A stretch of DNA of 64,000 bases from Bdellovibrio bacteriovorus str. Tiberius (GTDB taxonomy: Bacteria; Bdellovibrionota; Bdellovibrionia; Bdellovibrionales; Bdellovibrionaceae), in contig NC_019567.1 of NCBI RefSeq assembly GCF_000317895.1, positions 2,356,001-2,420,000 of the forward strand. The letters are read 5' to 3'. Below are positions 8,712-60,265 of the stretch, piece after piece (position 1 is the stretch's first letter; each line of letters begins with the position of its first letter). Under the pieces are notes generated by a model. It worked only from the letters and a program-made list of their open reading frames with translations, was not told the origin of the DNA and made no database searches. The position numbers and the translations under genes are program-made.

Positions 8712-8860
8712 GGCGCCGATTGTATCTGGACCTTGGTTTGTAGACACCAAAAACCGGGGTTAATGCACTGTTCAAAGGGGGCCAAAACCCGCTTTTTTGT
8801 CTCAAGTTGGGACAAACTTTACCGATAAGAAAGATATCACGCACAAACAGGAGGCATCAC

Positions 8861-19211: not shown

Positions 19212-19286
19212 CACCCGATCCGGTCTTGGACTTTCAGCCTTCTTCTTTGGATGCCATATTAGTGGCATTCCATGGAAGGAGGCTTT

Positions 19287-19778
19287 ATGTTTACCAAATC
19301 TTTACTGACTGCTTTCACAGCTCTGTTTGCCACGACCGCCTTGGCCTATCCCAATGTCGGCGACAAAGTATCCTGGACAGGCACGATGAGCACCATCAAT
19401 GGCGAAACCAACGCCGTGAAAATCACTAAAGAAGTCATCGGCCACGACGAAAAAAAGAACATCTGGAAAATCAAAATAGAAGCGGTCGTAGGCACCGACA
19501 AAACCAGTGAAACGATGGAGATCTCTGACCTCTATTCACCAGCAAAATACAAAACCCTGATCGCCGACTGCGAGAAAAACGGTGGCACTCTGGAAAAACT
19601 GAGCGCCCCGGCGGGAACTTATGACACCTGTAAAATGAGCATGACCATGGCCGATGGCACCATGGTCGAACGCTGGTGGGGCGACATCCCGTTTGGCGTC
19701 GTCAGCAAAAACACCCGCGACAGCGGCAAAATGCCGATCTCCAAACCGGATTTAAATTCAATCATCGCGGGATTATAA
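19287..19778 (+). CDS. Small secreted protein, unknown function
   Basis: GGAAGGAGG ends five bases before the ATG at 19287, so this start is preferred over the in-frame ATG at 19272 that overlaps the ribosome site. The 163-residue product has a signal peptide (about 1-20, ending TALA). A beta-rich mature domain holds two Cys (LIADCEKNGG and YDTCKMSMTM) likely to form one disulfide, and a conserved-looking WWGDIPFGVV. It is similar in style to the DUF3617-like neighbour, so a duplicate of distant origin is possible. Function not recognised. Confidence 0.8.
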   Translation: MFTKSLLTAFTALFATTALAYPNVGDKVSWTGTMSTINGETNAVKITKEVIGHDEKKNIWKIKIEAVVGTDKTSETMEISDLYSPAKYKTLIADCEKNGGTLEKLSAPAGTYDTCKMSMTMADGTMVERWWGDIPFGVVSKNTRDSGKMPISKPDLNSIIAGL

Positions 19779-58351: not shown

Positions 58352-58497
58352 AGACAAGGCCTCCATCCACTATTTTACCGCCGGAGTTTGGGAAAAAACA
58401 AGAATCCCCCAGCGTGATTCCCGGTGTCACTTTGGTTTGGCACAAAGGTTGTAAGGCACCTATTGCCCGTCTGATTGTCACCACAAAGGAGATACCT

Positions 58498-59331
58498 GTG
58501 CTTACCAAAACCGCCGCTGTCATTTTGCTGTTGTCACTGTGTTGTACCGTTTCCATGGCCGCCGACGATTCCAAAGTCAGCCGCAGCCTTGATGAAATTT
58601 CTGTTGCTAAAGAGCAAACCCGACTGGTCATGGGCCAAGTCTCCAGCCCTGATCAAAAAGAACGCCTGCGCTATGTGACGGACCGACTGAATTCCGCTGA
58701 AGAACTTCTGCGTCAGGCTCTGGGTGGAGCCGGCGGCTCCACTCCTCCCCCACCGACTTATGGTTCTGTCGAACTCTTCCGCTCTGACTCTTGTTCTGGC
58801 AGCCTGATTGGCACCGTCAGCGCGGCCTCCAGCTGCGAAAGATTTTCTTCTGCCGGTGACACCTGGGGAGTTCGCATCAACGGTCAGTGCCTGAACATCT
58901 CGGACACATCATCCGTGAAAGCCTGTGAATCATTCAAGGGTGGCGCAGATCCTCGCGCTGTGACCATTTACACTTCCGACTCGTGCTCAGGCAATGCGAT
59001 CGCCGCAATCAGCGCCGGTTCTCAGTGCGAAAACTTTGACAGCACCGGCTCCAGCGCTTGGGCTGTAAAAATCGATGGCAAGTGCCAGAACATCAGCGAC
59101 ACGGCACCAGCCAAGGCGTGCGCGGCCTTCAAGGGTGCCAGCACTCCGGGCACAGTGAAAATCTTCAACTCGGATTCCTGTTCTGGAAACATGGTGGCGG
59201 CCGTAGACTACAACACTCGCTGCGAAAGTCTAAGAGGCCTGCCTGCTGCGTGGGGAATTGAAGTCAACGGCCGCTGTGAAAATATCAGCGACCTGGATAT
59301 CGTTTCAGCCTGCGAACGTTACAGACCGTAA
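58498..59331 (+). CDS. Secreted protein with three Cys-rich repeats
   Basis: GTG at 58498 with AAGGAG at the right distance starts a 277-residue product; the longer ORF from 58414 has no site. Residues 1-21 form a signal peptide (ending VSMAA). A helical stretch (30-70) with Arg and Glu and a Gly/Pro linker (GGAGGSTPPPPTYG) lead into three repeats of about 65-70 residues. Each reads V-x-I/L-F/Y-x-S-D-S-C-S-G, a mid Cys, W-x-V-x-I-x-G-x-C-x-N-I-S-D and a final A-C-x-x-F/Y. The four Cys per repeat suggest two disulfides each. Repeats 1-3 start near 89, 152 and 219. I recognise no family; a surface binding protein is likely. Confidence 0.85.
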   Translation: MLTKTAAVILLLSLCCTVSMAADDSKVSRSLDEISVAKEQTRLVMGQVSSPDQKERLRYVTDRLNSAEELLRQALGGAGGSTPPPPTYGSVELFRSDSCSGSLIGTVSAASSCERFSSAGDTWGVRINGQCLNISDTSSVKACESFKGGADPRAVTIYTSDSCSGNAIAAISAGSQCENFDSTGSSAWAVKIDGKCQNISDTAPAKACAAFKGASTPGTVKIFNSDSCSGNMVAAVDYNTRCESLRGLPAAWGIEVNGRCENISDLDIVSACERYRP

Positions 59332-59491
59332 TTTTTCATCGCCCGAACTGACGACTCCAGTCTTGTTGACATCATCATGATGTCTCAAGCTGGGTCGTTC
59401 CCCAACCTGCTGGGAACGAAATACCCGGAAATCTTACGGGTTATTCTAATAAGGCCTCGGATTTAATCCGATAAAATATACCGGAGGCCTT
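59332..59491 (+). promoter_or_regulatory. Intergenic region rich in inverted repeats, with a start-proximal hairpin
   Basis: CGTTCCC at 59396-59402 and GGGAACG at 59412-59418 form a seven-pair stem without a T run. ACCCG and CGGGT at about 59423-59441 form a weak one. The main one is AAGGCCTC at 59451-59458 with GAGGCCTT at 59484-59491, ending one base before the ATG at 59492. It contains the ribosome site GGAGG. Inside lies CGGAT-TTA-ATCCG at 59458-59470. So the next gene's ribosome site can be hidden in a stem, a layout of translational control elements. No match to a known riboswitch was seen. Confidence 0.6.
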
Positions 59492-60265
59492 ATGAACCAT
59501 CGGTACGTTCTGCTCTGTCTGACGACAGCGCTATTTTCCACCGGCTGCGTGCTGCAAGCACACCTGACTCCGGCGATTGCCAATGTTGAAAATGAAGTCA
59601 ATCTGGGATCTTCGCAAGCCGGATTCACCGCCGTCTTCAAAGCGAACAACACACCGCTGTTTGGAATTTATGATGAAAACACGACATCAGCAGTGCTGAC
59701 CGGCGTCTGTAAACCCGGCGATCTGATCGTGATCCTTGGGGCCGGCGAGGTCGTCAAGAACCCTTCCTTGTTCTGTCCTGAAAATGGTGTGTGGTCGACC
59801 AGCATCGACTTGACGATTTACCCTGGCTACAGTTCATCGGACTCAACCCAACCCATTTCAGCAAGCACACGCGGAAGCTCAAATTCTTCTGTTAACATTC
59901 ATCTGACTTATTCACCGACGGCTATCCCTGCCGCGGGGGCTGGTTCCTACATCTACTTCTCCAACGGAAAGACATATCTCAGCTCAATAGCCGGTGGCGG
60001 AACTCAGACCGGAAGTTTTTCCCAGCGCATCTCGCACATCGGTCTGACGCAGAAAATGCAATATCAATATCGCATGGAAATATATAGAGCAGGCTCTCTG
60101 CATCTGACTCTGGGTACCAGCACAAGCCTTACCAGCCCCCTAGAAATCACCGCGCCCTACACATGGCAAAATGGCGACACAGTGAAGGTGACACCATTTG
60201 ATTCTTCCGGTGACAAATCCAGTATCAATGTCGCGATACCGGATCCTGCAGGTGTCAGTATATAA
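59492..60265 (+). CDS. Predicted lipoprotein, unknown function
   Basis: The 257-residue product has a signal peptide with lipobox FSTGC (Cys19). The mature domain is Ser, Thr and Gly rich and beta-like (SSQAGFTAVFKANNTPLFGI, VNIHLTYSPTAIPAAGAG) with two Cys (VCKPGDL and LFCPENG) that may form one disulfide. It resembles Ig-like or adhesin domains but no family is clear. The ribosome site GGAGG is placed in an inverted repeat directly before the ATG. Its 3' end is near the minus-strand 49-codon gene. Confidence 0.8.
   Translation: MNHRYVLLCLTTALFSTGCVLQAHLTPAIANVENEVNLGSSQAGFTAVFKANNTPLFGIYDENTTSAVLTGVCKPGDLIVILGAGEVVKNPSLFCPENGVWSTSIDLTIYPGYSSSDSTQPISASTRGSSNSSVNIHLTYSPTAIPAAGAGSYIYFSNGKTYLSSIAGGGTQTGSFSQRISHIGLTQKMQYQYRMEIYRAGSLHLTLGTSTSLTSPLEITAPYTWQNGDTVKVTPFDSSGDKSSINVAIPDPAGVSI

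Follow-up and report, generated by a model that had tools for sequence, protein, structure and literature searches.

Does the inverted repeat that reaches the start codon of a small gene in Bdellovibrio bacteriovorus str. Tiberius control the translation of that gene and, if so, does it act as a switch? The window, that is, the whole stretch of 64,000 nucleotides analysed, is part of a single 3,988,594-base contig, and the features of the locus all lie on its + strand. The gene (59492..60265, 257 aa) likely encodes a lipoprotein: the protein has a hydrophobic N-terminal stretch whose last residues are LFSTGC, has no family match, and its predicted structure has a mean pLDDT of 48. The stop codon of the upstream gene (58414..59331), which carries three repeats with Ser-Asp-Ser-Cys-Ser-Gly (SDSCSG...ISD) and has no Pfam or NCBIfam match, lies 160 nt 5' of the ATG at 59492. 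The two genes are also neighbours in the genomes designated G001, G004 and G007.

The lipoprotein gene was found in 5 of 24 Bdellovibrio genomes; the remaining 42 genomes of the family yielded no copy. In G004 it is a remnant (L005 / L007): the leader and the first 65 or so codons are deleted, the last part of the upstream gene is fused to the lipoprotein gene at about codon 65, and the frame breaks down around codons 200-222. G019 has a distant homologue (protein 35% identical) without a comparable leader. Given this restricted distribution, only three leaders, those of the window, G001 and G007, could be compared, and all conservation figures given below for the leader rest on them. When the leader DNA was compared with the 24 congeneric genomes, G001 alone stood above noise; the G007 leader, the most diverged of the three, is 46% identical to that of the window.

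The initial annotation had described an eight-pair inverted repeat just before the ATG, and AAGGCCTC (59451-59458) is indeed fully complementary to GAGGCCTT (59484-59491). The repeat is in fact longer, with a perfect helix of 10 bp between the 5' or anti-Shine-Dalgarno (SD) arm, ATAAGGCCTC (59449..59458), and the 3' arm, GAGGCCTTAT (59484..59493). The 3' arm had been said to contain the whole GGAGG ribosome site (59483-59487); it spans four of these bases, the first G lying just beyond the helix, and it also runs into the start codon, whose A and T are both paired. The small hairpin reported in the loop exists as TCGGATT-T-AATCCGA (59457..59471); its arms flank a 1-nt centre, and 4-5 pairs can form around a 3-nt loop. 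It is unconserved (only 58% of cells paired across the three leaders). The stem reported further upstream (59395..59419) is also present, with eight pairs rather than seven, TCGTTCCC (59395-59402) facing GGGAACGA (59412-59419). Its arms are identical in G001, the stem is absent from G007, and no T run follows it. When 59380-59520 was folded by energy model, one of the checks that the annotation had proposed, the 10-bp helix was present in the minimum-energy structure; relative to shuffles, the stability of the leader as a whole was raised only slightly (z = -1.7), which is not exceptional.

How unusual is such a helix? The genome sample combined the window with stretches totalling 400 kb (464 kb in all). 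Its genes were called with our own simple rule, based on ORFs and SD sequences, so that the figures are approximate. When the 60 nt upstream were shuffled and the ribosome site held fixed, helices of at least 8 pairs arose in 1.45% of shuffles, and of at least 10 pairs in 0.13%. The helix is the longest of its kind among 119 confidently called ATG/SD genes of the 464 kb, where 0.05 were expected; chance alone should still produce a few such helices in a genome whose size suggests some 3,700 genes. There is a slight general excess of start-site helices of at least 6 pairs (10 observed versus 4.3 expected). The cost of opening the SD sequence is 9.4 kcal/mol in the window, compared to a mean of 5.2 for 295 sampled genes; 23 of the 295, the window gene included, are at least as closed, so that the value is high, not extreme.

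The claim that the hairpin hides the ribosome site is supported for two of the three leaders. Opening costs are about 9 kcal/mol in the window and 12.5-15 kcal/mol in G007, against the genome mean of 5.2, and these two leaders were predicted to be masked at all fold lengths tried, with the SD sequence and/or the start codon base-paired. In G007 a different inner hairpin, GAAGAAC/GTTCTTC, is stacked on the core, and predicted masking is stronger than in the window. In G001 pairing of the site is weak: the best fold differs from that of the window, and for the majority of fold lengths the opening cost (about 3-5.5 kcal/mol) does not exceed the genome mean.

Conservation was then considered arm by arm. 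The 5' arm is 80% identical between the window and G007, compared to 46% over the leader. Among the 8-nt windows that precede the ribosome site, only those at 59379-59394 and at the 5' arm itself (59451-59459) have at least 7 identities to G007. Within the arms, the three leaders share an unchanged five-pair core, GCCTC/GAGGC. Of the ten pairs, five are invariant, four are broken in one species and one varies on a single side (A-U to G-U). Counting from the loop, an A-C mismatch replaces the sixth pair in G001 and the seventh in G007, which has further mismatches at the base. No pair changed on both sides, so the three leaders hold no covariation and no compensatory change in the helix. Pairing measures across them were no higher than in shuffles, 76 of 500 shuffles reaching the observed percentage paired. 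The initial annotation had held that a lack of covariation, or loss of the repeat in relatives with the same gene, would speak against its proposal. This applies by half: the five-pair core is retained, but neither the complete repeat nor the inner and upstream stems are kept throughout. These comparisons support conservation of the arm as a sequence better than conservation of the masking.

A search of 24 genomes of the genus for GGCCTC-gap-GAGGCCNNATG returned two orthologous leaders and one unrelated gene, in G014; the reversed control gave one match. The G014 gene, which we take to be rhomboid-like, has TTGACA just 5' of the pattern and TATAGC within the loop, and this match was judged to be due to chance.

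We consider a passive, strain-variable brake on translation to be the most likely explanation, with a probability of a little under one half, and an accidental helix comes a close second. If the leader is transcribed as drawn and the helix forms in the cell, ATAAGGCCTC would pair with GAGGCCTTAT in the mRNA and tie up most of the SD sequence together with the start codon. The ribosome would then pay roughly 9-12 kcal/mol for initiation, and the outcome would be a constant, low translation of the small lipoprotein gene. The strength of this brake would vary by strain, strong in the window and in G007 and weak in G001, and no sensing would be involved. The hairpin is real, moderately unusual and partly conserved, and it is of a known general kind: as in other 5' UTR hairpins that sequester the SD sequence and set the translation level, a local stem carries the ribosome site and start codon in its 3' arm. 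It differs from them in that it is predicted from sequence, and in that masking is not kept in G001. If functional, it would be another example of a local stem setting translation, in a predator whose translational control has been little studied.

That the helix has no function at all is quite possible. AGGCCT is a palindrome, so that any second copy nearby, brought in for instance by a tandem duplication, yields an inverted repeat; it does occur twice at this locus, as a direct repeat spaced by 33 nt, and because of this self-complementarity direct duplication alone could create such a repeat. In G007, a stretch of 28-30 nt that includes the 5' arm can be aligned to the true start region, from the ribosome site through the start codon to the first codons (GGAGGCCTCATTGAAGAACCGAAAAGTT against GGAGGCCCTATGAAAAATCGGTACGTT; P of 0.001 or less versus shuffles, 0.007-0.09 when the arm was kept constant). 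The stretch looks like a degenerate tandem copy of that region, and it is plausible that the repeat arose there by tandem duplication. An ancestral duplication in all three species was considered and rejected, the alignment being significant in G007 only; for the window and G001, where it is at chance level, this origin is at most a possibility, and this weighs against an accident, as does the conservation of the 5' arm where the remaining leader diverged. Helices of at least 8 pairs are found in 2.7% of sampled genes and 1.45% of shuffles, and strong masking is missing in G001; both speak for an accident. Against it, a length of 10 pairs is the extreme of the strict 119-gene sample. A ribosome site that carries the palindrome (GGAGGCCT) would in any case turn direct duplications into 'masking hairpins', and such hairpins need conserved pairing before they are called switches.

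A switch, such as the RNA thermometer or autoregulated leader that had been proposed, is not supported: the helix opens little more easily with rising temperature, has no Rfam match and shows no compensatory change. An RNA thermometer is highly improbable. As in ROSE and fourU elements, the SD sequence is held within a hairpin just 5' of the AUG, but the helix here is perfect and G+C-rich, and in the energy model it stays closed at physiological temperatures. Warming from 25 to 42 C lowers the cost of opening the SD sequence and start codon only from about 14 to about 11 kcal/mol, and the SD core remains paired across 20-42 C, so that the hairpin does not act as a thermometer in the model. An Rfam search of the leader at curated and lax thresholds returned nothing relevant, with no ROSE or fourU match, and our literature search found no paper on an RNA thermometer in Bdellovibrio. 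A regulated leader, in which a small RNA, a protein or the product of the gene itself would open the stem, is unlikely. The ribosome site is masked, as in riboswitches and autogenously controlled leaders that act at the SD sequence, and a conserved intergenic block lies upstream. Unlike in those leaders, no conserved aptamer or binding site was found in the RNA of the three sequences, and comparing them by eye revealed neither an alternative fold nor any stretch further upstream that could pair with the 5' arm; the loop is unconserved (42% identity between the window and G007), no Rfam family matches, and G001 does not keep the masking. A more elaborate version, in which a Bdellovibrio-specific, strain-tuned element born from a ribosome-site duplication would hold back a surface lipoprotein and release it once the stem is opened by a phase-specific small RNA or protein, is a long shot. 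It is also distinctly unlikely that the 5' arm acts as DNA rather than RNA, either at a promoter with TATTCT (59441-59446) as its -10 box or as half of a protein-binding site. The TATTCT region is similar in the window and in G001 (TATCCT), and a stress-protein gene has a similar hairpin at its start codon, one arm of which, TGCTATCCT, resembles an extended -10; yet no sigma-70-type site rose above the scan threshold on this strand, and G007 lacks the TA-rich stretch.

Besides the arms, the leader contains the best conserved intergenic block of the locus, GTCTCAAG[CT]TGGG[TC]C[GA]TTCCC (59382..59402), present as a single copy in the genome, which is possibly a promoter or a protein site. A FliA promoter was considered for it. 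The FliA promoter motif of Bdellovibrio, active in attack phase, is TTAAG-N16-CCGATA (PMC3627812, which also provides TAP-treated 5' end sequencing of HD100 in that phase). The block has a FliA-like TCAAG (59385-59389) followed at N16 by CCTGCT instead of CCGATA, and this candidate was rejected. A scan of the + strand found no intrinsic terminator between the upstream and lipoprotein genes, so that co-transcription with the upstream gene is possible. Elsewhere in the window, at 8799-8830, GTCTCAAGTTGGG...CCGATAAG followed by AGGAGG comes near the published attack-phase FliA promoter motif, and has GTCTCAAG and TGGG in common with the block at 59382.

Other start-codon hairpins were noticed in the sampled DNA. 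In the window, a much stronger one at 19220-19290 holds the GGAGG of a 163-aa gene starting at 19287 in about 20 imperfect pairs; its opening cost, 20 kcal/mol, is the highest of the 295 genes. The protein has no Pfam match, and the hairpin is present in G001 and G004, not in G007. In L024 (9895-9998), the GGAGG of a CDP-diacylglycerol pyrophosphatase gene lies within a 13-pair stem with an opening cost of 17 kcal/mol. The stress-protein gene mentioned above is a universal stress protein gene in L038 (15735-15850), where the hairpin TGCTATCCTT/GGAGGATAGCA covers the ribosome site; since its 5' arm resembles an extended -10 promoter, that arm may be absent from the RNA. This hairpin is nearly identical in G001 and G004 and changed in G007.
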